Source: an uncultured beta proteobacterium
GTDB taxonomy: Bacteria > Pseudomonadota > Gammaproteobacteria > Burkholderiales > Burkholderiaceae_C
Reading direction: 5' to 3'
Length of the DNA: 64,000 nt
NCBI GenBank assembly: GCA_903838565.1
Contig: CAILZB010000060.1
Span: forward strand, 1-64,000
The notes beneath the pieces are model-generated. The model worked only from the letters and a program-made list of their open reading frames with translations, had not been told where the DNA came from and made no database searches. Made by a program: the position numbers and the translations under genes. Positions 32,901 through 52,887 of this stretch are shown here, in pieces (position 1 is the first letter of the stretch; each line of letters starts with the position of its first letter).

Positions 32901-33778
32901 AGGCCGATCAGGCGCTGTTTGTGCTGCCGGAGGACAGCGCTCCGACCTTGGATGACGACGTGATCGTGCGCGCCAAGGGCACGCCCACGCCTCGCAGCGT
33001 CGCGGCTTCCACGCCCGTGTCCACACGGGTCGGCGTGACACCAGACATTCTTCTGAGTCTGGACCTGGGCGAGAACTTCCAGTTGCGCGGCCACGGCCTG
33101 ACGACCCGACTGGGCGGCACGCTTGAACTGCGCAGCGTCGAGCACGAGCGCTTGCCACGACTGAGCGGCGAGCTGCACACGGTGGGCGGCAGCTACAAGG
33201 CGCACGGCCAAAATCTCAAGCTCGAAAAAGGCGTGCTGCGCTTTGACGGGCCCTACGACAACCCGACGCTGGACATTCTGGCGATTCGCCCGAACTTGCA
33301 GCAAAGGGTGGGCGTGCGCATCATGGGGACCGCCTTGGCGCCGATCGTGCAGCTGTACGCCGACCCGGACTTGCCCGATGCAGAGAAACTGGCGTGGCTG
33401 GTGCTGGGCCGCTCGTCCGCGGGCGGCGGTAGTGAAGCGGCGGTGTTGCAACAGGCTGCCTTTTCGTTGCTAGGTGACCGCGGCATGGCCGCGTCGGGGG
33501 GGGTGGCGCAAAGCCTGGGCTTCGATGAATTGAGCCTGGGCAGCAGCGCCAACAGCACGTCGACGGGAAGCAATGCCATCGGCAGCAACGCCTCCGACAC
33601 CACGGTCACGCTGGGCAAGCATCTATCGGGCAATTTTTACGTCGCATACGAGCACGGCGTGAGCAGCGCCATGGGAACGTTTTCGATTTTCTACGAGCTC
33701 TCGCGCAACTTCACGCTGCGCGCGCAGACCGGAGAACAGAGCAAGGTGGATCTGATTCTGACGCTGCGCTATGACTGA
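29954..33778 (+). CDS. tamB: Translocation and assembly module protein TamB
   Basis: A 1274-residue protein of usual TamB size. It has one N-terminal span (about 3-26, ILLIAGLGVLTALLGATAAL), then a very long repetitive beta-rich body poor in cysteine that would form the periplasm-spanning groove, and the conserved C-terminal TamB domain (about 900-1274; RLGGTLELRSVEHERLPRLS, VGGSYKAHGQNLKLEKG, LGKHLSGNFYVAYEHG). It bridges the inner membrane to TamA and may also carry phospholipids. The stop overlaps the next start by eight bases (ATGACTGA). Confidence 0.94.
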   Translation: MKALRILLIAGLGVLTALLGATAALWLWSDTDSSLAATLKQVSRFLPAGQTLEARDVRGSLRSGGSIAWLRWQQGELSIEASDVVTAWSAQALLESELRIGRLEVGHLRIDDRRAATPPTAPTQLLLPFRVDLSFAIAALEWVGPSGLALSEIGGHYRFDGQQHMLDAGRARLALGQYSVNARLQARAPMGLSAQLKGSVQTTLPKGGQTLKATAQAELKGQLGGSDAALELLAQLAPDGASAPRSAMQASASAQIQPWHAQPITRAQLHWQGLDLAALWPQAPQTRLDGEASVTPAAAGWRARIELSNALSGPWNLQRLPLDSLQGELDFSQGQWTLQSLQARAAEGRVQALGSLAGGSSSDPKALNWQGQATLQAINPAAIDSRLAGTRVDGHLDAQQTAAGVAFDAHLQAAATSGAAAPRAGGVLDGMRLKSLNAKGLWLAPTLKIDTLQLQTDGAQLQGQLSLRSDSLAAQGRATLTLPGAQASLEGQIASANGQGELSLQVKDAALLTHWLARWPGSPAVLHGANLEGGAELSAHWHGGWQGQGRELRIEASAHAAQLQLRAAEGADPLWRLHALQAELSGTLAALKLKAQAQLDNAGRHVELTAQAQGGQLSNGIWQAKLETARLSAQDSQRPGNWVLQLDQSVALRWRNSGSSRSLEIAPGSVQVSAPLSGAVLLSWQPATWSQQGERSRWQTQGHLQGLPLAWIDLLGNSSMNQVGFKGDAVFDGQWQAAADESLHIKASLERSSGDLLLQTDDASLGSLQAGLTQARLELNVEGEKVAASLRWDSQNAGQAQANFSTRLLHQSGQWTWPQDAPLAGSIQAKLPPLASWSRLAPPGWRLRGTMDGQAELTGTRATPQWHGTLLARDLTLSSVADGIDFRKGTLRASIDGQRLEILEFKIGGAGASDAGRLSAKGYVDWLPASNPSTPLGSRLRMALDVRADALRVSAAADRRLVLSGQLSAKLIDARLSLRGSLKADQALFVLPEDSAPTLDDDVIVRAKGTPTPRSVAASTPVSTRVGVTPDILLSLDLGENFQLRGHGLTTRLGGTLELRSVEHERLPRLSGELHTVGGSYKAHGQNLKLEKGVLRFDGPYDNPTLDILAIRPNLQQRVGVRIMGTALAPIVQLYADPDLPDAEKLAWLVLGRSSAGGGSEAAVLQQAAFSLLGDRGMAASGGVAQSLGFDELSLGSSANSTSTGSNAIGSNASDTTVTLGKHLSGNFYVAYEHGVSSAMGTFSIFYELSRNFTLRAQTGEQSKVDLILTLRYD

Positions 33779-36044
33779 TCGGCCCGAGCTCTTGCCGGTG
33801 CAGCGCCCATCTTCCCACCGCGCCACCCTAGCCCTGTGCGCTGCGTTGGCATTCTGGCTTGCCGCCGGCTCCTTGCCCGCCAGCGCGCAAAGCGCCGAGC
33901 CGGCGCACTCGCAGGCCAGGCGTCCCAAGATCTGCCTGGTGCTCTCCGGTGGCGGAGCCCGCGGCGCCGCGCACGTGGGCGTGCTCAAGGTGCTCGAAGA
34001 ATACCGCGTGCCGATCGATTGCATCGCCGCCACCAGCATGGGTGCGCTGGTGGGCGCGGCCTACGCCACCGGCACCACCGTGGCGGAGATGCAGGCCATC
34101 GTGGGGCAGATCACCACCGAGACGCTGTACAAGGAAAATCCGCCGCGCACGGAAGTCGACATGCGGCGCAAGCTGGACGACAACACGCTGCTGTTCGGCC
34201 CCGAGCTGGGGATTGGGCGCGATGGACTGAAGCTGCCCAAAGGCGTGGTCACGGGGGTTCAGCTTGAATCCTTTCTGAGGCAGCTGGCCAAGGCCAGGGG
34301 CTACCACCAATTTGATCAACTGCAGATTCCGTTTCGCGCGGTGGCGACCGACTTGGTGAGCGGCAAGGCCGTGGTCTTCAGCGAGGGCGAGTTGGCCAAC
34401 GTGATGCGCGCCAGCATGTCGGTGCCGGGCGCGGTGGCGCCGGCCGAGTTTGCCGGAATGATGCTGGTGGATGGCATGCTCACGAGCAACCTGCCGATCC
34501 AGACCGGGCGCGCCATGGGCGCCGACATCATCATCGCGGTCAACGTGGGCACGCCGCTGCTCAAGCGCGACGCCTTGAATTCGATCGTCGCCGTGAGCTC
34601 ACAGATGCTGAGCATCCTGACGGAGCAGAACGTTCAGGCATCGATCGCCACGCTGACGCCCGCCGACATCCTGATTTCACCCGAACTGGGCGATTTCTCG
34701 ACCGGGGATTTTGACCACCTTGCGGAAATCACGCCGGCCGGGGAAGCGGGGGCACGCAAGCTGGCCAGCCGTCTGGCGCAGCTCTCGCTGCCCGAGGCCG
34801 AATACGCCCAGCTGCGCCAGCGTCAGTTGCTTGCGCTGGCGCCGGACGTGAAGTCCGTGGATGAAATCCGGTTCGACCCGCTGCAGCGAGTCAACCCGCA
34901 GGCGGTGCGCTCGGCGATGGAGACCCGGACCGGTGAGACCATAGACCAGCCGACCTTGGACCGCGACATGCGCCGGCTTTACGGCACGGGCTACTTTGAG
35001 CACGTGAACTACCGGCTGCTGGAGGAACCGGGCAAGCGCGTGCTGGCCGTGGAAGCCGTCGAGAAGTCCTGGGGACCCAACTTCATCCGCTTCGGCTTGG
35101 GGATGTCGAGTGACTTCAAGGGCGACGCCTACTTCAACCTGCTCGCCAGCTACCGCCAGACCTGGATCAACTCGCTGGGTGCCGAGTGGCGAACCGATCT
35201 GCAGGTGGGGCAGGATCCCGTATTGAGCAGCGAGTTTTACCAGCCGCTCAACGCCGAGGGAATCTTCTTCGTCGCACCCAGGCTGGTCTTTGGCAACAGC
35301 AGCTTCAACCTCTATCAGGGCGACCAGCGCTATGCGCGGTTTCAGGTGGGATCGCGCCTGGCGGGCCTGGACCTGGGTGCCCAGTTGGGTCGCTCCAGTG
35401 AGTTGCGGCTGGGTCTGGTGCGTGGCGCCATGTTGCCGGAGCTCCAAATCGGCCCGCCAACGCTGGCACCGGCTTCACCCCGTATTCAGCAAGGAGGCCT
35501 GCGCACTCGATGGCTGCTGGATCGCCTGGACAGCGTCAACTTCGCGCGCTCCGGCAGCTATGGCGAGGTCAATCTGCTGGACTCCGCGCGGCAGATGGGC
35601 GCCCAGGACAACTACGTCAAGTGGTCCGCCAGCGGCACCTCCGTCTATTCCTTTGGGGAGAACACCTTCAACTTCAATGCCTCGTTGGGTGGCCGCGCTG
35701 GCTCCCATCCGCTGCCCACCTATGACCAGTTTCTGTGGGGTGGCTTTCTGCGCCAGTCAGGCTATGCAACGGGTCAGTTCTTTGGTGAGGATCTGCGATT
35801 TGCCCGTGTCCTCTATTACCGTCGCATCATGCGTGGCAGCATGCTCGATGGGGCCTATGGCGGGCTGTCGCTCGAAGCCGGCAAGGTGGGCAACCAGCTG
35901 GTTCCCGGCAACAACGAGGGTCTGATGGTGTCGACCGCCGCCTTTGCGGCCGCCGACACTCCGATCGGTCCGCTCTATGTGGGCTACGGTCGCGCCCGCA
36001 GCGGCGCCAGCAGCTTCTACATCTATCTTGGCCGACCCTTCTGA
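33771..36044 (+). CDS. Patatin-POTRA-barrel outer-membrane protein (PlpD-like, type Vd)
   Basis: A 757-residue protein. Order: signal peptide (about 17-40), patatin lipase domain (about 52-350), one POTRA-like domain (about 360-430), and a barrel ending in YIYLGRPF. The oxyanion motif GGGARG is at 60-65, the nucleophile Ser89 lies in ATSMG (family usually GxSxG, so alanine replaces the first glycine), and Asp234 in VDGM is the dyad partner. This is the architecture of PlpD/FplA type Vd autotransporters, phospholipase A enzymes displayed or secreted through their own barrel. It overlaps tamB by eight bases, so it is translated with the machinery that assembles autotransporters. Confidence 0.9.
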   Translation: MTDRPELLPVQRPSSHRATLALCAALAFWLAAGSLPASAQSAEPAHSQARRPKICLVLSGGGARGAAHVGVLKVLEEYRVPIDCIAATSMGALVGAAYATGTTVAEMQAIVGQITTETLYKENPPRTEVDMRRKLDDNTLLFGPELGIGRDGLKLPKGVVTGVQLESFLRQLAKARGYHQFDQLQIPFRAVATDLVSGKAVVFSEGELANVMRASMSVPGAVAPAEFAGMMLVDGMLTSNLPIQTGRAMGADIIIAVNVGTPLLKRDALNSIVAVSSQMLSILTEQNVQASIATLTPADILISPELGDFSTGDFDHLAEITPAGEAGARKLASRLAQLSLPEAEYAQLRQRQLLALAPDVKSVDEIRFDPLQRVNPQAVRSAMETRTGETIDQPTLDRDMRRLYGTGYFEHVNYRLLEEPGKRVLAVEAVEKSWGPNFIRFGLGMSSDFKGDAYFNLLASYRQTWINSLGAEWRTDLQVGQDPVLSSEFYQPLNAEGIFFVAPRLVFGNSSFNLYQGDQRYARFQVGSRLAGLDLGAQLGRSSELRLGLVRGAMLPELQIGPPTLAPASPRIQQGGLRTRWLLDRLDSVNFARSGSYGEVNLLDSARQMGAQDNYVKWSASGTSVYSFGENTFNFNASLGGRAGSHPLPTYDQFLWGGFLRQSGYATGQFFGEDLRFARVLYYRRIMRGSMLDGAYGGLSLEAGKVGNQLVPGNNEGLMVSTAAFAAADTPIGPLYVGYGRARSGASSFYIYLGRPF

Positions 36045-38856: not shown

Positions 38857-40733
<1,877 letters not shown>

Positions 40734-40737
<4 letters not shown>

Positions 40738-41048
40738 CGCGCTGCCTCGCCCTGGATCCACGGAAGAACCTGGATGCACGCGGCCTCAGCCCGGCGCAGC
40801 GCAAAGGTCGAGTGGCCCACGCGCACCGCCAGCGGGTCGTCCCCGGGCTGACCGCGCGCCATCACGCTGACCCGCTCGCCGGGCAGGAAACCGATCTCTT
40901 CCAGACGCTGCGGCCAGTCGGCGCCGCTTCCCGCTTGGCCTGTCACCTCGTGCACGGCGTAGGCGGTGGCGAGCTCGGCCTGATCGAGCGGGATCGGCAG
41001 CAAGCACAGATCGGGGCTCGCAGCGGGGGGCGCAGCATGAGGACGCAA
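40734..41048 (-). CDS. feoA: Ferrous iron transport protein FeoA
   Basis: A 104-residue cytoplasmic SH3-like protein needed for FeoB activity. The FeoA core is RLEEIGFLPGERVSVMARG followed by PLAVRVGHSTFALRRAEA. The N-terminal 30 residues are longer than in enteric FeoA; a later start is possible but no better ATG is seen. First gene of feoAB. Confidence 0.93.
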
Positions 41049-41101
41049 AACAGACTCCTTGGGGTAGGCGCCGCGGCAGCGGATGCTCGGGCGCTGGGGC
41101 T

Positions 41102-41130
41102 ATTGTAGTTCGATGCGAATCATTCGCATT
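41102..41130 (-). promoter_or_regulatory. Fur-like operator and -10 of feoAB
   Basis: ATGCGAAT-C-ATTCGCAT (41113-41129) is a perfect 17-base palindrome with the A/T spacing of Fur boxes. On the minus strand a -10 box TACAAT (41102-41107) follows it closely, so a bound repressor would cover the promoter. The location 64 bases upstream of feoA supports iron control. Confidence 0.7.
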
Positions 41131-41258
41131 TGAGGCGGCACAGCCTCCGATCTCTTGACCGATGCGCCCGTCACGCTAGGCCGCAGTTCTTCGCGCGAAT
41201 GCGCGCTTCATCGCAAACCACGTGCAATGCTGGCGCGGCGAATCTACATTCCCCTCCA

Positions 41259-41274
41259 CAGACCTCCCGGTCTG
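41259..41274 (+). other. Hairpin before a small membrane gene
   Basis: CAGACC and GGTCTG form a perfect six-base stem around TCCC, ending eight bases before the AGGAG ribosome site of the gene at 41294. It could be an RNA control or stability element; no class recognised. Confidence 0.3.
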
Positions 41275-41293
41275 GTTTCACAGGAGAATTCAC

Positions 41294-41482
41294 ATGTCGT
41301 ACATCGCCAGGCACTTGCCGAAAATGGCTTCCATGGTGGCCGCCGTTGCCATCACTTTTTGCGTCCAGGGTTTGCTGTTCGCAGGTTTTGACCAGATGGC
41401 CAGGGAATCCCAGGCCAGCGCCGACAGCAGTCAGATCGCGGCCGACCGCACCCCAGGTGGCGTGGTTCATGCGCAAGGCTGA
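41294..41482 (+). CDS. Small single-span membrane protein, unknown
   Basis: A 62-residue protein with basic N-terminus (MSYIARHLPKMASMV), one membrane span (about 14-34, VAAVAITFCVQGLLFAGF), and a polar tail rich in serine, glutamine and alanine. AGGAG lies eight bases before the ATG, which decides this start over an in-frame ATG at 41222. Not recognised. It is divergent from feoAB and 36 bases upstream of another small membrane gene. Confidence 0.6.
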   Translation: MSYIARHLPKMASMVAAVAITFCVQGLLFAGFDQMARESQASADSSQIAADRTPGGVVHAQG

Positions 41483-41518
41483 GGTGCGATCCGGGCAGGG
41501 CCGGCCGCAAGGGTCCTG

Positions 41519-41728
41519 GTGAGAACCCTGCTCGCGTTGCTCGGCTGGTTGCTGCTGTTCGTGCTGTGCTGGCCGCTGGCACTGCTGGCGCTTTTGCTGT
41601 GGCCGCTGCTCTGGCTGGTCTCTCTGCCCTTGCGATTGGTGGGCATCACGTTGGATGCACTGTTTGCCTTGTTGCGAGCGATCCTCTTCCTGCCAGCGCG
41701 GATTCTTGGACACACGCGGCGGCCGTGA
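41519..41728 (+). CDS. Small leucine-rich membrane protein, unknown
   Basis: A 69-residue protein starting at GTG. It is extremely rich in leucine and tryptophan in two hydrophobic stretches (about 3-34 and 38-60; LLALLGWLLLFVLCWPLALL) and ends basic (HTRRP). The clean hydrophobic pattern on this strand and tandem position after the gene at 41294 support it being real. Function unknown. Confidence 0.55.
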   Translation: MRTLLALLGWLLLFVLCWPLALLALLLWPLLWLVSLPLRLVGITLDALFALLRAILFLPARILGHTRRP

Positions 41729-41770
41729 GCGGGGGGCCACGCCCGACATGCGGCATGACGCCAGCGCACG

Positions 41771-42730
41771 CTAGGGTGTCAACACCGGCGCCAGCACCGC
41801 CGCATCAACGTTGCCGCCGGACAGCGTGGTGCCGACCACGAGGCCCTGGAGCAAAGCGCGTTCCTGCATCGCCGCGGCAAACCCGGCCGCACCGGCGCCC
41901 TCGGCCACGTTGTGCGTGTCGCTGAAGATCCAGCGCATGGCCTGCGCCACCTCAAGGTCGCTCACCTTTACGACGTGGTCCAGGTGCGGTATCAATATCT
42001 CCAGCGCCGCCTGGTCCGCCACACGGCAGGCCATGCCGTCGGCCAACTGCGTGCTCACCGGCGACTCGACCACGCGCCCGGCGGCGATCGAGTCCGCATA
42101 GGTCGTGGCGTGCGCGCTGACGACGCCCACGATGCGCACCTTGTGTCCCAGCGCGATCTTGGCGGCCACGGCGGAACAGGCGCCCGAACCCTGGCCGATG
42201 GGCACGTACACCACGTCGAGCTGCGGCACAGCGCGAAAGAATTCCCACCAGTAGGTGGCAACGCCGCTGAGCAGGTCGCGGTGGAAGCTGGGCACCATGT
42301 GCGCGCCGCGCTGCGCGGCCAGCCGCGCAGCGTATTCACGGCTTTCCTGAAAGTCCTCGCCATGCTCGATCAGCGTCACGCCCAGCGAGCGCATGGCGGC
42401 GTTCTTCTCCGCCGAGTTGCCGCGCGGCACCACGATGCTGCAGGCCAAGCCGTGCGCCCTTGCCGCCCAGCCTATGCTTTGTCCGTGGTTGCCGCGGGTG
42501 GCGCTGATCACCTCACGCGGCAGCGCGCCGCGCTGGCGCAGCGCCTCGAGATAGGTCAGGCCGCCGCGAATCTTGAAGGCGCCCACGGGCGTGTGGTTCT
42601 CGTGCTTGACCCAGCAGTGTGTGCCCAGGCGCTCGCTCAAGATCGCCCAGCGGTATTGCGGCGTGGCCTGGAATTCGCGGTACACCAGTGTGGCCGCGGC
42701 CTCAATCTCCTGCAGGCTGGGGATGTTCAT
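41771..42730 (-). CDS. Threonine/serine dehydratase-like PLP enzyme
   Basis: A 319-residue fold-type II PLP enzyme. The cofactor lysine is in HTPVGAFKIRGGLTY, the phosphate-binding loop is around VPIGQGSGACSA, and ATRGNHGQSIGWAARAHGLA is the typical asparagine loop. No C-terminal ACT domain, so a catabolic dehydratase (threonine, serine or hydroxyaspartate) is likelier than a biosynthetic one. ATG 42730 overlaps the PhzF stop as ATGA. Last gene of a five-gene coupled operon. Confidence 0.88.
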   Translation of the reverse strand: MNIPSLQEIEAAATLVYREFQATPQYRWAILSERLGTHCWVKHENHTPVGAFKIRGGLTYLEALRQRGALPREVISATRGNHGQSIGWAARAHGLACSIVVPRGNSAEKNAAMRSLGVTLIEHGEDFQESREYAARLAAQRGAHMVPSFHRDLLSGVATYWWEFFRAVPQLDVVYVPIGQGSGACSAVAAKIALGHKVRIVGVVSAHATTYADSIAAGRVVESPVSTQLADGMACRVADQAALEILIPHLDHVVKVSDLEVAQAMRWIFSDTHNVAEGAGAAGFAAAMQERALLQGLVVGTTLSGGNVDAAVLAPVLTP

Positions 42731-43587
42731 AGCTGCACCGATCCATCGACGCAGGTCACGACGTCGCCGCCGACCCAGATGCGCTCGCCGTCGCGTTCGA
42801 TGTAAACCCGTCCCGCGCGCTGCAATGCCGTCCCTTGGGCGGCGACGTAGCGCTCGGGTGCCAATCCGGCCCCCATGAGCCATTGCGCCAGCGCCGCGTT
42901 CAGACTGCCGGTCACGGGGTCTTCTGTCATGCCGTTATTGCCGGGGAAGAAAGCACGCACCTCGAACGCGGTGTCGTCATCGGCATCGTGCGCACCGATG
43001 ACGCCGACCTTGCCCCTCGGCCCCACGACCCCGACATCGAGGCCGGCAAGAATCTCAGCGTTCGGTTTCAGCTGCAGCACCTGTTCGGCCGAGCGCAGCA
43101 TCACGCCGCGCCAGTTCGGTCCGTTGTCGCACCAGGCGTGGCGCACGATGTCGTCGCGCGCAATGCCCAGGCCGCGCGCGATCAAGGCAACGTCCGACTC
43201 CGGCAGCGGGCCGCTTTTGATCAAGGGTGGCGCGGCGAACGCCAACCTTGCGCCGTCGCGGCGAATCTGCACCAGACCGACGCCGCATTCCTGCACCACC
43301 CGCTCGCCCTTGGGCTGCCCCCCGGCCTCCAGCCACGCATGGCAGGTGCCCAGCGTCGGGTGGCCGGCGAAAGGCAGCTCCCGGCCCGGGCAGAAGATGC
43401 GCACACGGTAGTCCGCTTCGGCGCTCGTGGCTGGCAGAACGAAGGTCGCCTCGGACAGATGGGTCCAGTTCGTGAAGTGCTGCATTTCTTCGCCGGACAG
43501 GCCGGCTCCATCGAGCACCACGGCCAGAGGGTTGCCCCGATAGGGGGTCGACGTGAAGACGTCGACCTGCTTGAATGCCCGCTTCAT
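42727..43587 (-). CDS. PhzF family isomerase-like protein
   Basis: A 286-residue protein with two diaminopimelate-epimerase-like halves. Seen: KQVDVFTSTPYRGNPLAVVL, the catalytic glutamate in NWTHLSEATFVLP, the FAGHPTLGTCHAWLE loop, and TEDPVTGSLNAALAQWL. PhzF acts as an isomerase in phenazine synthesis, but most members have unknown substrates and there are no other phenazine genes here. Both ends overlap neighbours by four bases. The substrate is probably an amino-acid-like compound (inference from context). Confidence 0.9.
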   Translation of the reverse strand: MKRAFKQVDVFTSTPYRGNPLAVVLDGAGLSGEEMQHFTNWTHLSEATFVLPATSAEADYRVRIFCPGRELPFAGHPTLGTCHAWLEAGGQPKGERVVQECGVGLVQIRRDGARLAFAAPPLIKSGPLPESDVALIARGLGIARDDIVRHAWCDNGPNWRGVMLRSAEQVLQLKPNAEILAGLDVGVVGPRGKVGVIGAHDADDDTAFEVRAFFPGNNGMTEDPVTGSLNAALAQWLMGAGLAPERYVAAQGTALQRAGRVYIERDGERIWVGGDVVTCVDGSVQL

Positions 43588-44777
43588 GCCTTGTTTTCCG
43601 CGATGACTCTTGCCAGCGCAGCAATGCCGGTCTGGATCTCCTGCGCGCTGGCGGTGACGAAAGACAGGCGCAGGCTGCGCGTGTCGGCATGATCGGCGTA
43701 GAACGCAGCGCCGGGAACGAAGGCCACACCTTTGTCCACTGCCTTGGGCAGCAGCTCCGCGGCGTTCATGCCCTGCGGCAGACGTGCCCACAGGAACATG
43801 CCGCCGCTGGGCGTGTTCCATTCGACGCCCGCGGGCATGTGCTGCTGCATCGCCGCGAGCATGGCGTCGCGCTGGCTCTTGTACAGCGCGCGGATGGTGG
43901 GCACGTGGCGCTCCAGAAAACCGTCCTTCATGACCTCGACCACGACCCGCTGGTTGAATCCCGGCGTATGCAGATCGGCGGCCTGCTTGGCCTGCAGCAG
44001 CTTGGGGTAGATCGCCTTGGGCGCGACCATGAAGCCCAGGCGCAGACCGGGGGCCAGCACCTTGGAGAAAGATCCCAGGTAGACGCAGCCCTCGGGGTTG
44101 CGCGCGGCCAGCGGCAGCGGCGGCGGCGCGTCAAACCACAGGTCGCCGTAGGGGTTGTCTTCCAGCAAGGGCAAGCCGATCTCGCCCGCGGTCTGGCTCA
44201 AGCGCACGCGGCTGGCCTCGGGCATGGTGCGACCCGTGGGGTTCTGGAAGTTGGGCAGCACGTAGAGAAAGCGCGCCGGCGCGCCTCGCACCGCGTCGCG
44301 CAGCGCCGCCACGTCCACGCCGTTGTCGTCACAAGCCACGCCTTGAATCTTTGGCTGCATCGGCGCGAAGGCTTGCAGTGCGCCCAGGTAGGTGGGCGTC
44401 TCCACCAGCACGCGACTGTCCTTGTCGATCAGGATCTTGCCGAACAGATCCAGGCCCTGCTGCGAGCCGGTGGTGATCAGCACCTGCGCTGCGTCCACCT
44501 TCCAGGGCAGCATCTGCGCCACCAGCTCGCGCAGCGGGCCCAAGCCCTCGCTCGCGGCGTATTGCAGCGCCGCGCTGGCGTCGTCGCGCAACACCTTGGC
44601 GCAGGCCGCGGCAAACTCGGCCACCGGAAAAGTCTTGGGCGAAGGCAGTCCGCCGGCAAAGCTGATGATGCCGGGACGCTCAGTGACCTTGAGGATCTCG
44701 CGGATCACCGAAGGGTTCATCAACGCGGCGCGTTCGGCCAGCACCCAGGACGAGGAAGAGTTTTGCGAAGTTGTCAT
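43584..44777 (-). CDS. PLP-dependent aminotransferase (class I/II fold)
   Basis: A 397-residue fold-type I aminotransferase. Seen: PGIISFAGGLPSPKTFPVAE near the N-terminus, LQYAASEGLGPLRELVA, VLPNFQNPTGRTM, the Schiff-base lysine in YLGSFSKVLAPGLRLGF, and RLSFVTAS at the end. It resembles the 2-aminoadipate/multi-substrate (LysN-like) group, which acts on aromatic, branched or aminoadipate substrates. Overlaps both neighbours by ATGA. Confidence 0.9.
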   Translation of the reverse strand: MTTSQNSSSSWVLAERAALMNPSVIREILKVTERPGIISFAGGLPSPKTFPVAEFAAACAKVLRDDASAALQYAASEGLGPLRELVAQMLPWKVDAAQVLITTGSQQGLDLFGKILIDKDSRVLVETPTYLGALQAFAPMQPKIQGVACDDNGVDVAALRDAVRGAPARFLYVLPNFQNPTGRTMPEASRVRLSQTAGEIGLPLLEDNPYGDLWFDAPPPLPLAARNPEGCVYLGSFSKVLAPGLRLGFMVAPKAIYPKLLQAKQAADLHTPGFNQRVVVEVMKDGFLERHVPTIRALYKSQRDAMLAAMQQHMPAGVEWNTPSGGMFLWARLPQGMNAAELLPKAVDKGVAFVPGAAFYADHADTRSLRLSFVTASAQEIQTGIAALARVIAENKA

Positions 44778-45688
44778 GATTGGCTTTCAGAAACGGTAGC
44801 GACCGGCATTTTTCTGCCCACGAAAACGGTCACCATCACGGCCAGGCCGAAGCCCACCGTGACGGCGTCGAGTTGTTCGCCCAGCAGGGGCACGGCGAAC
44901 AGCATCGACAGGAATGGCTGGATCAACTGCACCTGGCTCACGCGCACCGTGCCGCCCAGAGAGAGCGCACGGTACCAGGCAAAAAAACCCAGCCACATGG
45001 AGAACACGGCGACGTAGGCAAAGGCCCACCAGGAAACCGGCTGGATTGTCACCTGGGGCCACTGAGCGTAGGCCAGCGGCAGGTTGATCGGCAGCGTCAG
45101 CAGCAGCGCCCAGGAGATCACGTGCTCGGCCCGCATCGAGCCCGACAGTCGCGCGCCCCAGGCGTAGCCGATGGCAGCGCACGCCATGGCCGCCAGCAAC
45201 AGCAGGTCTGCGCCTTGCAGAAAGAGGCCGGACCCACCCGAGCGCAACACGGCAAAGCTCACCACCAGCGCCGTGCCGAAAAACGCGCAGCACCAGAAAG
45301 CGGCGGAGGGACGCTGCCGGTGCAGGTAGGCGCCCACCACGGCCGTGGCCAGCGGCAGCACGCCCAGCATCACGCTCGCATGCACTGCCTGCACATGGCG
45401 CATGGCAATCGACGTGAACAGCGGAAAACCAAACACCACGCCCAGCGCCACCACCGCCAGCGGCAGCAGGTCCTCACGCCGGGGCCGCGGCGCGCGCGTG
45501 AACAGCAGAAACAGCGCCGACAGCAGCGCCGCAACGACAGCGCGACCCGTCGCCACAAACACGCCCGACATCTGCGGCGCCTCGGGCGTGCCCACGGCAA
45601 TGCGCGTCAAGGGCAGCGTCAACGCGAAGATCACCACGCCGACGACGCCCAACCACAGGCCCAGTTTGATCTGCTGGCTTGACTTCAC
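44774..45688 (-). CDS. EamA/DMT family exporter
   Basis: A 304-residue membrane protein with ten predicted spans in two EamA repeats (about 12-140 and 155-295). The family exports amino acids and related metabolites. The start is GTG 45688, which overlaps the LysE stop as GTGA; no ATG is available near the family start. It ends inside the aminotransferase start (ATGA). Confidence 0.9.
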   Translation of the reverse strand: MKSSQQIKLGLWLGVVGVVIFALTLPLTRIAVGTPEAPQMSGVFVATGRAVVAALLSALFLLFTRAPRPRREDLLPLAVVALGVVFGFPLFTSIAMRHVQAVHASVMLGVLPLATAVVGAYLHRQRPSAAFWCCAFFGTALVVSFAVLRSGGSGLFLQGADLLLLAAMACAAIGYAWGARLSGSMRAEHVISWALLLTLPINLPLAYAQWPQVTIQPVSWWAFAYVAVFSMWLGFFAWYRALSLGGTVRVSQVQLIQPFLSMLFAVPLLGEQLDAVTVGFGLAVMVTVFVGRKMPVATVSESQS

Positions 45689-46284
45689 AGCGTCGCCATC
45701 CACGCAGCAGTGAGCACCAGCACGGCCGCCATGCCGCGGTTGAACCAGCGCAACCGCTTCCCTTGCGCCAGCCACTCGCGCAGCAGCGATCCCATGAGCG
45801 CGTAGCTCAGGTTGCTGGCGAGCGCGAACACCAGCAGCACCGGAAGCACCACGGCAAAACGCTGCCACTGATCGGTGCGCCCGGCAAGCCAACCCGCCAC
45901 CACGGTAAGCGCCAGCATCCAGGCCTTGATGTTCAGGAACTGCAGCAGTACGCCCTGGCCGAACGTGACATTCAGGCGCGCGCTGGCGATGGAAAAGGGG
46001 GATGTGACGCCAACCAGTTTGTAGGCCAGCCACAGCAGGTAGAACACGCCCACGACCGTGATGCCCAGGCGCAGCACGGGCAGCGCCAGCACCAAGGCAC
46101 CGACGCCGGCGGCGCACAGACTGAACAACAGCGCCCAGCCCACCGGCACCGCCAGCACGAAGCCCAGCGCGCGCTTCAAGCCCCCGTTGGCCGCCAGTGC
46201 CGTGGACAAGGTGGTGTTGGGGCCGGGCGAGAAACTGGCGGCGGTGCAGAGCAGCAGCAGTGCGGTGAATTCGGAAGCGGTCAT
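45685..46284 (-). CDS. LysE/RhtB family amino acid exporter
   Basis: A 199-residue membrane protein with about six spans. The N-terminal ASFSPGPNTTLSTALAANGG is the signature stretch of LysE/RhtB exporters. It is the first gene of the five-gene operon and is divergent from the MocR regulator, the usual position for a target gene of such regulators. Confidence 0.92.
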   Translation of the reverse strand: MTASEFTALLLLCTAASFSPGPNTTLSTALAANGGLKRALGFVLAVPVGWALLFSLCAAGVGALVLALPVLRLGITVVGVFYLLWLAYKLVGVTSPFSIASARLNVTFGQGVLLQFLNIKAWMLALTVVAGWLAGRTDQWQRFAVVLPVLLVFALASNLSYALMGSLLREWLAQGKRLRWFNRGMAAVLVLTAAWMATL

Positions 46285-46328
46285 GAAAAAGAAAAGCGGC
46301 GGGAACTTGCCAGAGTGTGGGGCCTGAC

Positions 46329-46386
46329 TTTATAGTTGACGCCAGCACAGCAGCAGTACAGTTTCACGGACAAATACTCAATCTGT
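46329..46386. promoter_or_regulatory. Divergent control region between lysE-like and mocR-like genes
   Basis: On the minus strand a -10-like TATAAA (46329-46334) precedes the LysE gene. To the right lies an inverted pair TACAG ... CTGTA (46357-46361 and 46383-46387) and the related strings AGTTGAC and AGTTTCAC. MocR proteins often bind repeats between themselves and the target gene. The exact operator is not certain. Confidence 0.35.
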
Positions 46387-46443
46387 ATGGCTGCCATAGC
46401 CAGCACACCCGCCGGCTCACCGTCCCCACGAAAGCGACTCTCC

Positions 46444-47895
46444 ATGTTGACGCCCGCCGCCGCACAGACCCTCACCGAACAGCTGGCCGAACTCTTTGCC
46501 CAGCGCATCCGCACGCGCCTGTTGGCGAGCGGCGCCAAGCTGCCTTCGGTGCGCCAGTGCGCGCAGCTGCATGGGCTCAGCCCGTCCACGGTGGTCGCCG
46601 CGTACGACCGGCTGCTGGCCCAGGGACTGGTGCTGTCGCGCCGCAACCGCGGCTTCTATGTGCGCGAGCCCGCCAGCGTCAGCGCGGCGCCCACGTCGCT
46701 GGCAGGAAAAACCGAGACCGCCGCCATGCGGGCGCCGGTGAATGCCGCGGCGCTGATCCGCAGCATGTTCCATCGCCCCAGCGACAAGCCCCAGCCCGGC
46801 ATGGGCGCATTTCCGCCGGACTGGATGGAGAGCACGTTCATGCCGACGGCGGTGCGCAAGTTCAGCAGCAGCAAGGCCCTGCAGTCGTTCTCGTTGCGCT
46901 ACGGCGAACCGGCCGGAGACGTCGGCTTGCGCGAGGCCTTGTCACGCAAGCTGGCAACGATCAATGTGCCCGCTGCGCCCGAGCAGATCATCACCACCGT
47001 TGGCGCCACGCACGCTCTGGACATCGTGAGCCGCACGCTGCTGCGCCCCGGCGACACCGTGATGGTGGAAGAGCCCGGCTGGGCGATCGAGTTCGCGCGG
47101 CTCGACGCCTTGGGCATGCGCATCCTGCCGGTGCCGCGCCGCGCCGACGGCCCTGATCTGGAGGTGATGGCGCGCTACTGCGAGGCGCATGCTGGCACAA
47201 CCCAGGCGCCCAAGCTGTTCGTGAGTGTGAGCGTGCTGCACAACCCCACCGGCTACTGCATCACGCCCGGCAGCGCGCACCGCGTGCTGCAACTGGCGAA
47301 CCGGCACAACTTTTACGTGCTCGAAGACGACACCTACAGCCACCTCGCCTCGGAGCACGAGACGCGACTGGCAGCGCTCGATGGGCTGCAGCGCAGCATC
47401 TACGTCAGCGGCTTTGCCAAGATCCTGGCGCCCAACTGGCGCGTGGGTTTCGTGGCCGCTCCCAGCGCGCTGGTGGAGCGCCTGCTGGACACCAAGATGC
47501 TGACCACGCTGACCACGCCCGCGCTGCTGGAAAAAGCGCTGGCCTGGTGCATCGACCAGGGGCAGTTGCGCCGTCACGCGCAGCGCATCCGCTCACGCCT
47601 GGACCTGGCACGCGCGCGCAGCGTGAAACTGGCCCTGGCACACGGCTGCACTTTTGCCGCAGAACCTGCCGGCCTGTTCGGCTGGGTGGACACGGGTGTG
47701 GACACCGACGCGTTGTCGCAGCGCATGCTGGACCACGGCTATCTGCTGGCGCCTGGCTCGCTGTTTCACGCCGAACGCGCGCCCAGCACCCTCATGCGCA
47801 TCAACTTTGCGACCACGCAGGACGCGGCGTTCTGGAAGGTGTTTGCGAAGGCTATCGAACCCGTGGCTACCCGCGGATCGCGGCGTGGCGGGTAG
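46444..47895 (+). CDS. MocR/PdxR-type regulator (GntR HTH plus aminotransferase domain)
   Basis: About 483 residues. The N-terminal winged helix (about 1-80) includes KLPSVRQCAQLHGLSPSTVV and SRRNRGFYVRE. The C-terminal class I aminotransferase-like domain (about 110-475) has SVLHNPTGYCITPGS and the PLP lysine in YVSGFAKILAPNWRVGFV. Such regulators sense PLP with an amino compound. Divergent from the LysE operon, so that operon is its likely target. Start uncertain: ATG 46387 gives 19 more residues and would include part of the candidate operator. Confidence 0.9.
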   Translation: MLTPAAAQTLTEQLAELFAQRIRTRLLASGAKLPSVRQCAQLHGLSPSTVVAAYDRLLAQGLVLSRRNRGFYVREPASVSAAPTSLAGKTETAAMRAPVNAAALIRSMFHRPSDKPQPGMGAFPPDWMESTFMPTAVRKFSSSKALQSFSLRYGEPAGDVGLREALSRKLATINVPAAPEQIITTVGATHALDIVSRTLLRPGDTVMVEEPGWAIEFARLDALGMRILPVPRRADGPDLEVMARYCEAHAGTTQAPKLFVSVSVLHNPTGYCITPGSAHRVLQLANRHNFYVLEDDTYSHLASEHETRLAALDGLQRSIYVSGFAKILAPNWRVGFVAAPSALVERLLDTKMLTTLTTPALLEKALAWCIDQGQLRRHAQRIRSRLDLARARSVKLALAHGCTFAAEPAGLFGWVDTGVDTDALSQRMLDHGYLLAPGSLFHAERAPSTLMRINFATTQDAAFWKVFAKAIEPVATRGSRRGG

Positions 47896-48463: not shown

Positions 48464-49552
48464 CTAAGAGGGTTCGGACCCACTCTCCTGGCTCAGCAGC
48501 GAAGCAATCTTTCCCTTGTCCTGGACGCCGAGCTTGCTGTAGGCGTTGCGCAGGTGGTGTTTGACGGTGGAGGGAGCAAGTTCGAGCCGGCGCGCCACTT
48601 CCTTGTAGGTCAGGCCGCCGGCGAACAAACGCGTGACTTCGCGTTCCCTTGGCGTCAGCGACGCTGCGACCGAACGCTTTCTGACGCGCACCACGACGAG
48701 CTCGGCGACGTGCCGGGTCTCGACCATGATGCGGCTGCCGACGAATCCCGACTTCCCACGTGCGCTCGGATCGAGCGCTACGGCCGCGGGCAAGGCAGGG
48801 CCCTTCCAGTCGGGCCATTGCAGCAACATCAGGTCGGCAAAGCCGCTGTCGGCGAATTGCAGCGTGCCAAAACCGTCGCAGATCGCCACGGCGAAGCGCG
48901 AATCACCGGTGCCGGCCTTGAGCTTGGCAATCTGTTGGATGCGGTTGATGTTGGTGGCCGAGGCGATATGAGGCAGCGATGCCTCCAGAAGATCAGCATC
49001 TCCCTGGGAAAAGGGGCACTGCGGATCGTTTCGGTAAAGGGACACAAAGGCATTCAGTCCCAGCACCGGGTCATCGATGATGCACATCAGGCCCTGCGTC
49101 AGATCGTATTTCTCCAAATAGGCCCTGAACGCCGGTGTCATCTCGGCATCGGCCGCGACAAGGGTCAGGGCGGCGCTCGGGCGCGCACGGTGGTATTTCA
49201 ACGAAGGGTCTTCGTGCTTGAGTCGCTCCCATTCAAGCGCGCACTCCAGCGGAAGGCGGTAGAGGCAACTGTTGTGCATCATGGCCCCGCCATTCCCGAT
49301 TGAGCCACGGCCCATCCAACCGGAGTCGAAGGCAATGCCCTTCTGCAGCAACTCGAACACGGCGGGTTCGAACTCGCTGATCGTCGCGCCCAGGGCCAGC
49401 GGATACAGGTCCAGCACCACCGCACTCAAGGCCTGCATCGCCGAACCGAAAACGGGCGCCGCCTGGAGCGAAGCGTCCGCGCGGGGCAGGCCCGGCGCGA
49501 TGCGGCAAAAGGGCCACCAGGCTGCAGTCAGGTCAGGATCGGTCGTTGACAC
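48464..49552 (-). CDS. LuxR-type transcriptional regulator
   Basis: A 362-residue protein. The C-terminal LuxR helix-turn-helix is clear at about 296-350 (LTPREREVTRLFAGGLTYKE, then VARRLELAPSTVKHHLRNAY). The first 290 residues are a sensor of GAF/PAS-like character without a recognised ligand site. No autoinducer-binding or receiver domain is seen. It starts with GTG at 49552; ATG 49438 is an alternative. It is divergent from the alpha/beta hydrolase and receptor genes, which are its likely targets. Confidence 0.88.
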   Translation of the reverse strand: MSTTDPDLTAAWWPFCRIAPGLPRADASLQAAPVFGSAMQALSAVVLDLYPLALGATISEFEPAVFELLQKGIAFDSGWMGRGSIGNGGAMMHNSCLYRLPLECALEWERLKHEDPSLKYHRARPSAALTLVAADAEMTPAFRAYLEKYDLTQGLMCIIDDPVLGLNAFVSLYRNDPQCPFSQGDADLLEASLPHIASATNINRIQQIAKLKAGTGDSRFAVAICDGFGTLQFADSGFADLMLLQWPDWKGPALPAAVALDPSARGKSGFVGSRIMVETRHVAELVVVRVRKRSVAASLTPREREVTRLFAGGLTYKEVARRLELAPSTVKHHLRNAYSKLGVQDKGKIASLLSQESGSEPS

Positions 49553-49745
49553 AGGCTATCGCGACCAGGTTCGCGGAGGAATTCAATTCTTCATTCGATC
49601 AGATACGCAGCGCGCGGTCAAGAAAATCCGGGATGTATCTCCTCCATATGGACGATGGTGTCGTTTCAGTGCGATTCCTAGAATGAACACTTCTTTATGT
49701 CCGTTTTTTCATGCGTCAAAGACCTTGGCACAGGAGCGTATTTTC

Positions 49746-50591
49746 TTGAGAACTCACATTGTGCAGGTCAATAACCAAGCCATCGCCGTGCATGAAAGCG
49801 AAGGCAGTGGCCCCCCGATCGTGTTGGTGCACGGCAATTCCTCATCCGGGCTCACCTTCAGCCGTCAATTGTTCAGTCCACTGGGGAGCGACCATCATCT
49901 GGTCGCGATCGATTTGCCGGGCCATGGAGAGTCCGATCGAGCGCAAGAGCCCGGCACGGGATACAGTGTGCCGGGCTACGCGAAAACCCTGGTGGCGGTG
50001 TGCGAACAACTGGGCTTGAACGACGCCGTCTTTGTCGGCTGGAGCCTGGGCGGGCACGTGGTGCTGGAAGCCAGTGCCCTGCTGCCCCGGGCTGCGGGTT
50101 TCATGATTTTTGGAACGCCGCCGATCGGCTTCCCCCCCGACATGGCGGGCGCCTTCTTCCCGCATCCCGCCATGGCCGCGGCCTTCAAACCGAACTTGAG
50201 CGAAGCGGAAATCGAAGCTTTTGTGGCGGCCTTCTTCAAACCGGGTTCGCCCGCGTCGGCTGAAGCCTTCAAGGCCGATGTTCGGCGCGCTGACGGCAAC
50301 GCGCGCCTGGCTCTGGCGGCGAGCATTCAATCGGGCGGTTACGAAGATGAACTTTCCATCCTGGCGGGCCTGACTGTGCCGCTGGCCATTCTGCACGGAG
50401 AGCAGGAGCAGTTGGTCAGCGGCGCCTATCTGAATGCCTTGGTCGCGCCCACGCTTTGGCGATCAGAGGTGCAAACGGTGGCTGATGCCGGGCACGCCCT
50501 GCACTGGGAGCAACGCTTCAAGTTCAATGCGCTGCTGGACGTGTTTGCGCACCATTGCCAGCGCCGGGCCGCTGCGGCCCGGAACAATTGA
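49746..50591 (+). CDS. Alpha/beta hydrolase
   Basis: About 281 residues. Seen: the oxyanion stretch IVLVHGNSSSGLTF, IDLPGHGESDRA, the nucleophile serine in FVGWSLGGHVVLEA, and the catalytic histidine in DAGHALHWE. The acid position reads HGEQEQLV, with glutamate where aspartate is usual. TTG 49746 was chosen because AGGAG lies nine bases before it; ATG 49683 and GTG 49761 are alternatives. It is followed after 88 bases by a TonB-dependent receptor, so it may cleave an imported ester. Confidence 0.88.
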   Translation: MRTHIVQVNNQAIAVHESEGSGPPIVLVHGNSSSGLTFSRQLFSPLGSDHHLVAIDLPGHGESDRAQEPGTGYSVPGYAKTLVAVCEQLGLNDAVFVGWSLGGHVVLEASALLPRAAGFMIFGTPPIGFPPDMAGAFFPHPAMAAAFKPNLSEAEIEAFVAAFFKPGSPASAEAFKADVRRADGNARLALAASIQSGGYEDELSILAGLTVPLAILHGEQEQLVSGAYLNALVAPTLWRSEVQTVADAGHALHWEQRFKFNALLDVFAHHCQRRAAAARNN

Positions 50592-50679
50592 CGCAGACCA
50601 TCTTTTCAACAATCCGTGGCATTGCCACAACACGATCTTGCATTCAGTGAAGATATATTTAAAACGAGGAGACAAGCCC

Positions 50680-52887
50680 ATGAAATCAGTACACCTTAGC
50701 CGCACCGCCACCCTGCGCTTGCGCGCGTTTTCGAAATCAGTGATTGCGCTGGCGGCGGTGGCCGCCTTGCTGCCCGTTGGCGCCCAGCAGGCAGCGGCCA
50801 CGGACGACGCGCCCACGGCGCTGGCGCCGGTGGTCGTGACCGCGCAAAAGCGCCAGCAGTCCACGCAGGAGGTACCGATTGCGATGACCGTTCTGGGTGC
50901 CGATGCGCTGGAAAAGACCCGCGCCGCCAGCCTGGAAGACCTGCAGCAACTGGTGCCGAGCTTCTCCATGGACGACCAGTCGGGCTACCACACGGTGACG
51001 GTGCGTGGCGTGGGCGGCGGCGGCCGCAATATCGGGTTTGACCCGCGCGTAGGCGTCTATGTGGACGGCATCTACATGGGCCAGTCCCAGGCACTGGACC
51101 AGCCGCTGTTCGATGTCGAGCAGGTGGAAATATTGCGCGGCCCGCAAGGCTATCTGTTTGGTCGCAATACCGTGGCCGGTGCCGTCAACATCACGACCGC
51201 CGCGCCTGCCAGGACGCTGCAAGGGTACGTCAGCGCCGACCTTGGCAGCTACGGCACGCAAAATGTTTCCGCGTCAGTCTCCGGACCGATTGCCGACAAA
51301 GTGTCGGGCAAACTCTCGCTGTCTTCGGAGTCGCACACCGGCTTCATCACCAACGTGAACGACGGACAGAAACTCGACGACCTGAAGCGCGAGACGGTGC
51401 GCGGCCAGTTGCTGTTCCAGGCCAGCGACAAGCTCAAGATAAACGTCGCTGCCGATTCCTCGTATACGAATCAACGCCTGGTCTTGGGCGAGCCTGTGGC
51501 GGCCAGTGGCCAGCAGTTGCCGGGCGGAACATCGATCGGCTCGGTCGACTTCAATGTCACACCCAAGGAAACTACGCACCTCTCGGGTGCCAGCGTGACA
51601 GCCAACTACGCGCTTGACGGCGGCGATACGCTCACGGCCATCGTCGGCCAGCGCAGCACCCGCCAGATCAAGACCAACGACACCGACTACAGCGCGGTTG
51701 ACCAGTTGTCGGTCCATTACTCGGACGACTTCAAGCAGACCTCCGAGGAAGTCCGCATCGCCTCTGCGAACCAGGGCGTTGCGCGCTATGTCGTGGGCGT
51801 GTTTCACCTGAACGAGAGCGCCGACACCGCCCGCGCCGCCAACCTGGGCGCCGCGTTCGGCCCGGCTGCAGGCCTGTCAGTGACGAACAGCGGAACCGTG
51901 AAAACCGACACTTCGGCCTTGTACGGCGCTCTCGATTACGACCTGCTGCCCGCACTGACGTTGAACCTGGGTGCGCGCTACACCCATGAAACCAAGAACG
52001 TGCTGTTCAGCCTGGGCAGTGCTGCGCCCGGACTCGCCGCCGCCTTCGGCATCGGCACGCTCAACGGCTACACCCACTCCAGGGATGAGAACAACCTCTC
52101 GCCCAGCGTGGGCGCAACTTACGCGGTGAGCAAGGAGCAAAACCTTTACGCCAAGTTCTCGCGCGGCTTCAAGAGCGGTGGCTGGAATGTCGATTTCATC
52201 AGCGCGGCCGCGGCCGTCAATCCGTCGTTCAATGCCGAGTCGGTGGACACCTATGAAGTCGGCACCAAGGGACAAATGCTCGGCGGTCGCCTGCGCTACG
52301 ACCTGTCCGTCTACGACAGCTCGTTCAAGAATTTCCAGGTCTTCCAGTTCGTCAACCTGGGTGCCACCAGCGTGCTCCAACTCACGAATGCCGCCGGTGC
52401 GAAATCGAAAGGACTGGACGGCAGCCTGACCTGGCGCGCAAGCAAACAACTGGACCTGGGCGCGAACTTCGGCGTGGTGCACGCCACGTTCAGCAGCTTT
52501 TCCGGCTGTACCGCAACCCAGAGTTGCACCGGCAACCAGCTGCCCTACGCGCCCCAGTTCACCTCGGCCCTGACGGCGAATTACGGCGTGCCGGTGGCCA
52601 GCCTCGGTGGCAAGCTGAACCTCTACGGTGAGTACAGCTACCGCGGCAAGTCCTACTCGGATCCCGTCAACGACCCGGTCACGCAAAGACTGCCCAGCCG
52701 CGAGCTGGTGAACGCGCGTCTCGCGTTCAGCCCGAACGATTCGCATTGGGACTTCAACCTGTGGGCGCACAACGTGTTCAACAAGGACACCGTCACGCTG
52801 CGCGGCCAGGACTTCCTGGGCACCTACATCGTCAAACGGATGGAGCCCCGCATGGTGGGACTCCAGGCCAAATACTTCTTTGACTGA
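50680..52887 (+). CDS. TonB-dependent outer-membrane receptor
   Basis: A 735-residue receptor: signal peptide (about 1-40, cut near QQAAA), TonB-box-like APVVVTAQKRQQ, plug domain (about 55-165; VGVYVDGIYMGQ, VEQVEILRGPQGYLFGRNTV), and a 22-strand barrel. The AQKR-type plug is the style of pesticin/xenobiotic-type receptors frequent in sphingomonads. GAGGAG precedes the ATG. No ExbBD or siderophore genes are near, so the ligand is unknown; the upstream hydrolase and LuxR regulator suggest a specific organic substrate. Confidence 0.93.
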   Translation: MKSVHLSRTATLRLRAFSKSVIALAAVAALLPVGAQQAAATDDAPTALAPVVVTAQKRQQSTQEVPIAMTVLGADALEKTRAASLEDLQQLVPSFSMDDQSGYHTVTVRGVGGGGRNIGFDPRVGVYVDGIYMGQSQALDQPLFDVEQVEILRGPQGYLFGRNTVAGAVNITTAAPARTLQGYVSADLGSYGTQNVSASVSGPIADKVSGKLSLSSESHTGFITNVNDGQKLDDLKRETVRGQLLFQASDKLKINVAADSSYTNQRLVLGEPVAASGQQLPGGTSIGSVDFNVTPKETTHLSGASVTANYALDGGDTLTAIVGQRSTRQIKTNDTDYSAVDQLSVHYSDDFKQTSEEVRIASANQGVARYVVGVFHLNESADTARAANLGAAFGPAAGLSVTNSGTVKTDTSALYGALDYDLLPALTLNLGARYTHETKNVLFSLGSAAPGLAAAFGIGTLNGYTHSRDENNLSPSVGATYAVSKEQNLYAKFSRGFKSGGWNVDFISAAAAVNPSFNAESVDTYEVGTKGQMLGGRLRYDLSVYDSSFKNFQVFQFVNLGATSVLQLTNAAGAKSKGLDGSLTWRASKQLDLGANFGVVHATFSSFSGCTATQSCTGNQLPYAPQFTSALTANYGVPVASLGGKLNLYGEYSYRGKSYSDPVNDPVTQRLPSRELVNARLAFSPNDSHWDFNLWAHNVFNKDTVTLRGQDFLGTYIVKRMEPRMVGLQAKYFFD

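Follow-up and report, generated by a model that had tools for sequence, protein, structure and literature searches.

We analyzed a stretch of 64,000 nucleotides (hereafter, the window) from an uncultured beta proteobacterium of the Burkholderiaceae_C (NCBI GenBank assembly GCA_903838565.1, contig CAILZB010000060.1, positions 1 to 64,000 of the forward strand), centering on an operon of five genes and the gene for a MocR-type regulator divergent from it. Read from 5´ to 3´ on the minus strand, the operon encodes a LysE-family exporter, an EamA-family exporter, an aminotransferase (AT), a PhzF-family isomerase and a dehydratase (DH). With moderate confidence, we propose that it is a stress unit, sensed through MocR and pyridoxal 5´-phosphate (PLP), and that it rids the cell of a toxic small amino acid by export and deamination, the compound probably resembling serine, threonine or homoserine. 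That the genes form one regulated unit is well supported by their linkage in related genomes and by a conserved predicted operator.

Conservation, linkage and modular membership

The genes were searched in a sample of 150 genomes of the same family. An orthologue of the DH (at least 53% identity; the other matches listed did not exceed 35%) was found in 49 genomes, including that of the window, and was split over two contigs in genome G098. Matches to MocR, PhzF, EamA and AT, each searched with its own E-value limit, were present in 108, 112, 101 and 114 genomes, respectively. Two genes were considered linked when located within 16 kb of each other, among the genomes holding both. On this basis, MocR was linked to AT in 96/102, to PhzF in 89/97, to EamA in 86/91 and to DH in 42/45 genomes; AT to PhzF in 98/101, to EamA in 89/91 and to DH in 44/46; PhzF to EamA in 84/90 and to DH in 46/46; and EamA to DH in 42/46. 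MocR, AT, PhzF and EamA were all present in 82 genomes and clustered in 74.

Unlinked pairs mostly corresponded to hits on separate contigs, as in five of the six genomes with unlinked MocR and AT; true separation of some pair was observed in G026 (MocR and AT about 1 Mb apart), G056 and G147. A usual separation of the genes in relatives, which would have spoken against the preliminary description of this DNA, was mostly not observed, as the MocR–AT and PhzF–DH counts illustrate. Moreover, no operon family was detected at the score thresholds used in 20 control regions around paralogous dehydratases (around 30% identity), so the clustering exceeds chance. Linkage and clustering counts together indicate that MocR, EamA, AT and PhzF are the common core, to which roughly one third of the family adds the DH.

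Gene neighborhoods were then compared. Regions were taken from 47 of the 49 genomes with a DH orthologue (locus L031 included); the window was the 48th and G098 was left out. Neighbor families were defined as open reading frames (ORFs) matched in several other loci, with unique genes dropped and many clusters named by eye. The 47 family regions, some of them truncated, contained MocR in 36 cases, LysE in 31, EamA in 41, AT in 44, PhzF in 44, a VOC protein (Glyoxalase_3) in 32, a GST in 22 and an AlaX-like protein in 5 (adjacent in 1). The corresponding values in 80 named DH loci were 41, 42, 44, 49, 46, 33, 24 and 13 (adjacent in 3), while 20 hand-picked regions lacking the DH held MocR, AT and PhzF in all 20, EamA in 17, VOC in 11, LysE in 8, GST in 6 and, near the operon and on its strand, an AlaX-like tRNA editor in 9. 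Coordinates from hidden Markov models use the first domain, and gaps are therefore approximate, with those of L210 unreliable; taxon labels of L113, L126, L134 and some metagenome-assembled genomes are doubtful, and a "Rid" match in L108, which looks artefactual, was not counted.

Several members may replace one another. A racemase (PF01177, with L217 as the test case) lay 12–33 bp from EamA or LysE in nine of the 20 DH-lacking loci and in none of the 158 DH-bearing regions. In Oxalobacteraceae loci L127, L129, L130, L133 and L139, EamA was followed by a RidA-like protein (family checked on L139 only) and a match to PhzF was absent, although in L129 and L133 the contig ends soon after. The AlaX-like gene adjoined the DH in L140, L152, L160 and L182, and the VOC gene in L084. 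Both metal-type motifs (HxxxH and CGGTH-type) were kept in 26 of 28 strong AlaX matches; the AlaX-like protein of L045 scored below the NCBIfam AlaXM cut-off (179.7 vs. 300) and above that of Pfam tRNA_SAD. Hence, membership is modular: LysE, DH, PhzF, racemase, AlaX-like, RidA-like, GST and VOC proteins come and go.

Other neighbors were recorded as well: a class-V aminotransferase (CsdA-like) in L207, a GNAT protein in L210, L219 and L084 and, as judged by eye, transport-binding-protein-like genes near some loci (cluster C20 in 3/47 and C16 in 4/47).

A conserved predicted operator

In 76 gaps between MocR and the first gene, including that of the window, we fitted a composite pattern in which an inverted box is combined with a pair of direct boxes (box consensus CTGTATTGG). 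These gaps were retained from 128 loci (the 47 family regions, the 80 named loci and the window) by requiring a MocR at least 45% identical and aligned near its start, and a gap below 600 bp. The inverted box started 30 bp before the direct pair in 70/76 gaps, and the direct pair was spaced 11 bp in 74/76. An extra direct box, with at least six of nine matches, was present in 56 gaps, 17 bp upstream in 48. Scores ranged from 17 to 27 of 27, and 64 gaps reached at least 21, above all 1,520 shuffled gaps (none over 20); the boxes were derived from the same gaps that were scored, and the shuffles preserve base composition only. The window itself carries a predicted operator with four boxes (Table 1).

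The 20-base direct pair matched the 4.3-Mb genome only once at up to two mismatches, at the operon site, which was itself included in the alignment behind the pattern. A wider regulon acting through this operator was rejected, since other matches appeared only at three mismatches, with 43 sites in total vs. 33 for a reversed-pattern control. In Oxalobacteraceae with the order MocR | DH-LysE-EamA-RidA-like-AT, an 11-bp box pair was seen by eye in the gap, clean in L133 and L139 and altered in L127 and L129.

Operon layout

The preliminary description had reported five same-strand genes joined by four successive 4-base overlaps beside a divergent MocR gene, and both coordinates and junction letters confirm this arrangement. 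The stop-start overlaps read GTGA at LysE/EamA and ATGA at EamA/AT, AT/PhzF and PhzF/DH; the term "fully overlapping" was a misnomer, each overlap spanning four bases.

Table 1. Coordinates of the operon, its divergent regulator gene and the predicted regulatory elements in the window.
Feature	Position	Strand or orientation	Basis
DH: fold-type-II (PALP) dehydratase, PRK06110 family	41771-42730	(-)	NF004771 525.3 vs. 317 bits
PhzF-family isomerase	42727-43587	(-)	TIGR00654 175.7 bits vs. cut-off 76.2
AT: LysN/KAT-II-like PLP aminotransferase	43584-44777	(-)	Aminotran_1_2 112.6 bits; 2egy 344 bits
EamA (DMT) family exporter, GTG start	44774-45688	(-)	PF00892 92.4 bits vs. cut-off 28.2
LysE/RhtB-family amino-acid exporter	45685-46284	(-)	PF01810 48 bits vs. 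cut-off 25.6
TATAAA resembling a -10 element of the operon, immediately past the last operator box	46329-46334	(-)	sequence; unreported by the consensus promoter scan
Four-box operator, predicted	46342-46408	(-)	window score 21/27 vs. shuffle maximum 20
Operator box CTGTGCTGG	46342-46350	(->)	fitted box, operator on (-)
Operator box CTGTACTGC	46353-46361	(->)	fitted box, operator on (-)
Operator box GCCATACAG	46383-46391	(<-)	fitted box, operator on (-)
Operator box GTGTGCTGG	46400-46408	(->)	fitted box, operator on (-)
MocR-type regulator, divergent from the operon	46444-47895	(+)	GntR winged helix + Aminotran_1_2-like sensor

Among close gene pairs, an ATGA or GTGA overlap was mechanically possible in 55/70 for LysE-EamA, 22/55 for EamA-AT, 21/45 for AT-PhzF and 6/17 for PhzF-DH. 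In the same-genus relative L039, about 0.3 kb interrupts the LysE-EamA junction and about 0.17 kb the AT-PhzF junction. The 4-base overlaps are common, yet not fixed across relatives, and we rejected the four perfect overlaps as the chief remarkable feature of the locus, as they are frequent but not conserved even within the genus. Both inserts of L039 are short and repeat-like and sit exactly at the positions of the window's 4-base overlaps.

A consensus promoter scan of positions 40900-46500 listed no minus-strand promoter-like site and also missed the operon's own promoter. In the same interval, six minus-strand terminator-like sites fell within operon genes, and nine were found on both strands vs. 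4.0 expected.

Outside the operon, genes for FeoA and FeoB (38857-41048, minus strand) follow downstream on the operon strand, about 720 bp past its end. We rejected them as operon members given this distance to the FeoA start and the finding of FeoB in 0/47 related regions. Past MocR (48464-52887) lie genes for a TonB-dependent receptor and a LuxR-type regulator together with an ORF that by eye is alpha/beta-hydrolase-like, and at 29954-36044 on the plus strand a TamB-like ORF and a patatin/Omp85-like ORF (first-ATG ORFs) overlap by eight bases.

Protein families and kept residues

All six proteins passed Pfam cut-offs. Among the matches listed, only PhzF (TIGR00654) and the DH (NF004771) passed a curated NCBIfam cut-off, while MocR, AT, LysE and EamA reached no named NCBIfam equivalog. 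The regulator combines an N-terminal GntR-type DNA-binding domain (PF00392, 43.7 bits vs. a cut-off of 27) with a sensor of the aminotransferase fold (PF00155, 113.5 bits). It scored below the NCBIfam cut-offs for PdxR (210.7 vs. 320), GabR (94.4 vs. 600), EhuR (143.5 vs. 480) and PtsJ (111.1 vs. 573). K326, which we take from the fold to be the PLP lysine, and R452, presumably the holder of the substrate carboxylate, were both kept in at least 97% of 34 aligned sequences, including that of the window. The protein is thus a regulator of the MocR/GabR subfamily and is predicted to bind PLP.

Alignment with relatives showed that the AT keeps K239 and R370; its closest solved relative is 2egy (LysN), with 344 bits over nearly the full length. 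PhzF likewise keeps the LSE motif, with the presumably catalytic E46, and the EDPxTGS motif, and its closest solved relative is 1ym5, a PhzF-like protein. No other phz genes were recognized by eye among the recurrent neighbors, no dedicated phz search having been made.

The DH was assigned by NF004771 to the PRK06110 family ("threonine dehydratase"), with a predicted threonine or serine ammonia-lyase activity, and its closest solved relatives are threonine dehydratases. Among the best 25 of 38 matches, it was below the cut-offs for TdcB (141.7 vs. 453), EutB (NF005680, 163.5 vs. 413), BhcB (137.8 vs. 550) and IlvA (PRK08639, 135.8 vs. 421). K53 sits in the sequence GAFKxRGG. Position 79, within the motif ATRGNHGQ, is occupied by arginine, where IlvA-type enzymes have alanine in the alignment; both His46 and Arg79 depart from the IlvA site. 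Arg79 was present in 47/47 family sequences and in 59 of 63 distant ones, the exceptions being L126 and L153 (both Lys), L202 (Val) and L203 (no motif match). Of the 63 distant sequences, 32 had been fetched with the ATRGNHGQ motif as one of two search patterns. The unbiased count, from the phylum-wide sample, was 29/31. The equivalent position presumably contacts the substrate in serine racemase and diaminopropionate ammonia-lyase, and an arginine there would favor an anionic side group.

The dehydratase beyond the family and the threonine/isoleucine branch

The DH was found in 39/398 phylum-wide genomes. Eight of these belong to the family of the window, and the DH regions of the remaining 31 were examined. 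In eight of the 31 (L175, L176, L177, L179, L180, L181, L188 and L190, of families f48 and f38), the DH and exporter genes are inserted into an ilv operon: ilvB precedes the DH, a LysE-family gene and ilvC come after it, and ilvH and an EamA-family gene were each found in six loci; ilvB, ilvH, ilvC and the transporters were named on representatives only. These families belong to another class of the phylum, probably the Alphaproteobacteria. In three other distant loci, the DH stands beside a gene similar to that for O-succinylhomoserine sulfhydrylase (metZ-like), the one tested being below cut-offs.

This distribution, along with the NCBIfam name of the DH family, would suit overflow control of the threonine/isoleucine branch, with export of threonine or homoserine, conversion of threonine to 2-oxobutyrate and transamination of 2-oxo acids. 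We regard this explanation as rather improbable. In L179, the sole ilv locus tested, the transporters most resemble O-acetylserine/cysteine exporters, below the cut-off; His46 and Arg79 differ from what the IlvA site has, and gene proximity is no proof of flux.

Additional arrangements were noted. MocR-like divergent neighbors (cluster C1, below the MocR threshold) occur in several distant loci, e.g., L174, L186 and L189. In L135, L144 and L153 (SAR324-labelled), the DH stands directly behind genes that by eye are trpF- and anthranilate-synthase-like. Loci L195, L197 and L199 show a variant with a MocR-like gene, the DH, a PLP decarboxylase (PF00282, with L197 as the test case), PhzF and a large permease-like protein (C32).

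Proposed mechanism and its weighing

In the stress unit that we propose, PLP sensing, the sign of regulation, export direction, substrate and PhzF chemistry would be as follows. MocR, with PLP on K326, would recognize one particular amino acid as an external aldimine and then, at the four-box operator, activate (or derepress) the divergent operon. LysE and EamA would export the amino acid, while the DH, by enamine-forming deamination, and the AT would turn it into a 2-oxo acid. PhzF may shift a proton in an intermediate, a step that the RidA-like enamine/imine protein may perform where PhzF is missing. In some relatives, the AlaX-like protein would free tRNA(Ala) of the wrongly attached amino acid, and the racemase may replace the DH. 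The inducer is most likely a small amino acid of the C3–C4 class with a hydroxy group or another beta-substituent, such as serine, threonine, homoserine or one of their analogues, with threonine, homoserine or an analogue equally allowed with serine as the toxic compound.

The combination of two exporter families with enzymes for amino and 2-oxo acids, the alternation of RidA-like with PhzF and of racemase with DH, and the presence in some loci of a tRNA(Ala) editor suggest a defense against a small amino acid with toxic effects both as a metabolite and in translation. Ser- and Gly-tRNA(Ala) are known targets of AlaX proteins (PMC10018355). In B. subtilis, export by an EamA-type protein gives tolerance to serine and diaminopropionate (PMC11005379), and serine toxicity has been suggested to arise via interference with threonine synthesis (PMC8226366). 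The preliminary description had suggested one pathway converting and expelling a particular amino acid or analogue; such a pathway is plausible, but the modular membership is more easily reconciled with a set for stress or detoxification than with a linear pathway of fixed composition. A more specific version is one that we advance only tentatively and consider unlikely. In it, the genes would form a modular unit conferring immunity to a single class of toxic amino acids, with a PLP sensor, two unrelated exporters, swappable enzymes (DH/racemase, PhzF/RidA-like) and a tRNA trans-editor in some relatives; the substrate of the Arg79 class of DH would be beta-substituted and perhaps anionic, and PhzF would be an enamine/imine tautomerase.

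Several observations weigh against the proposed stress unit. The counts come from related genomes and are not independent events; the 20 loci without the DH are a hand-made choice out of 63 genomes in which MocR but no DH was found; and 12/76 operator fits fall within the shuffle range. AlaX adjoins the DH or VOC gene in only 5/158 DH-bearing loci and lies farther off in 14 more, and the genome of the window has it on the same contig but some 136 kb from the operon. A simple serine/threonine model leaves VOC and GST unexplained, neither LysE nor EamA comes near any NCBIfam cut-off for a named exporter, and Arg79, unlike ordinary serine/threonine dehydratases, may point to a different, perhaps anionic, substrate. 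Finally, the 31 distant DH loci contained LysE in 8, PhzF in 4, a RidA-like protein in 1 and AlaX in 1, with no MocR, EamA or AT at the thresholds used. In distant genomes, the DH thus occurs mostly without the operon and also has an existence of its own.

The unusual Arg79 and the three converting enzymes could also reflect catabolism of one specific rhizosphere or anthropogenic amino acid as a nutrient, comparable to the ectoine/EnuR and canavanine systems, with the exporters as safety valves. MocR regulators often control catabolism (PMC5320631), and the binding-protein-like genes (C20, C16) and the permease-like gene of L195, L197 and L199 described above would agree with this reading. The constant core, however, holds no importer, and the enzymes are swappable or missing in many loci while the exporters are among the most constant members, so we consider catabolism unlikely.

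Doubtful, and the least probable of the alternatives, is a "PdxQ"-type regulon serving vitamin B6 (PLP) homeostasis, in which exporters and PhzF would act on B6 vitamers or PLP-derived products: DMT, LysE, aminotransferase, COG384 PhzF and GloA/VOC proteins match the PdxQ list (PMC5320631), as do the class-V aminotransferase and GNAT genes of a few loci, but AlaX, the racemase and the link of the DH to ilv do not fit, and a search for PNPOx_N (PF01243 only) in 21 genomes gave no match within the operon, the nearest lying more than 30 kb away by coordinates read by eye. It was accordingly rejected as first choice.

Implications and comparison with known systems

PRK06110 dehydratases are common, as the counts in the family and phylum samples indicate, and so are PhzF relatives outside phenazine pathways. 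The operon connects both families with exporters and a single MocR operator, and its relatives add connections with tRNA editing and the ilv operon. For the proposed stress unit, this gives one testable set of substrates, namely serine, threonine, homoserine and their analogues, as well as grounds to re-examine the in silico assignment of such MocR regulons to vitamin B6. The tRNA-clearing protein of some relatives hints at the nature of the danger.

The preliminary description knew of no described pathway with such a gene set, a statement that has to be corrected. The survey of MocR regulons by Suvorova and Rodionov (2016) describes a close in silico relative, PdxQ, and was the only direct description among the literature matches listed (PMC5320631). 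In some of the MocR regulons surveyed, the members include DMT or LysE transporters, aminotransferases, PhzF (COG384) and GloA-family proteins; threonine dehydratase and RidA are mentioned for other MocR regulons, and some regulons may respond to damage from PLP enzymes (PMC5320631). PdxQ regulons share with the present operon a MocR with a repeated-box operator and this set of transporters and enzymes, a DMT or LysE transporter, an aminotransferase and PhzF being found under MocR here too, and Table 2 of the survey includes a four-box class, "-> <- -> ->" (PMC5320631). PdxQ regulons differ in that they were linked to B6 through a PLP-metabolic gene (pdxO/pdxO2/pdxH) (PMC5320631), whereas the PF01243 search of 21 genomes detected no match within the operon here. 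The sections of the survey covered make no mention of AlaX-like proteins, an Asp/Glu racemase or an ilv-operon link, although its tables may list this group; these links, this group's operator and the Arg79 family were not found in the literature search, and the survey's supplement may hold the operator (PMC5320631). The PNPOx_N search of 21 genomes gives the vitamin B6 assignment no support for this operon.

At the level of single components, the 2-aminoadipate aminotransferase LysN (2egy), presumably a Thermus protein, is the closest solved relative of the AT, whose context here is not lysine biosynthesis. A canavanine operon with the tRNA editor CtdA likewise places a standalone tRNA-editing protein beside genes degrading a toxic amino-acid analogue (PMC10018355). 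It differs in the B3/4 fold of its editor, in its other enzymes and, by a term search of the main text, in the lack of a named exporter, transporter or regulator (PMC10018355); the window's own operon has no editor. Lastly, the "sleeping beauty" exporter AexA/AerA of B. subtilis, which has an AraC-type regulator, a single exporter and, in the sections of the article covered, no mention of enzymes, resembles the operon in pairing an EamA-family exporter with a neighboring regulator, and it protects from serine, alanine and 2,3-diaminopropionate (PMC11005379).

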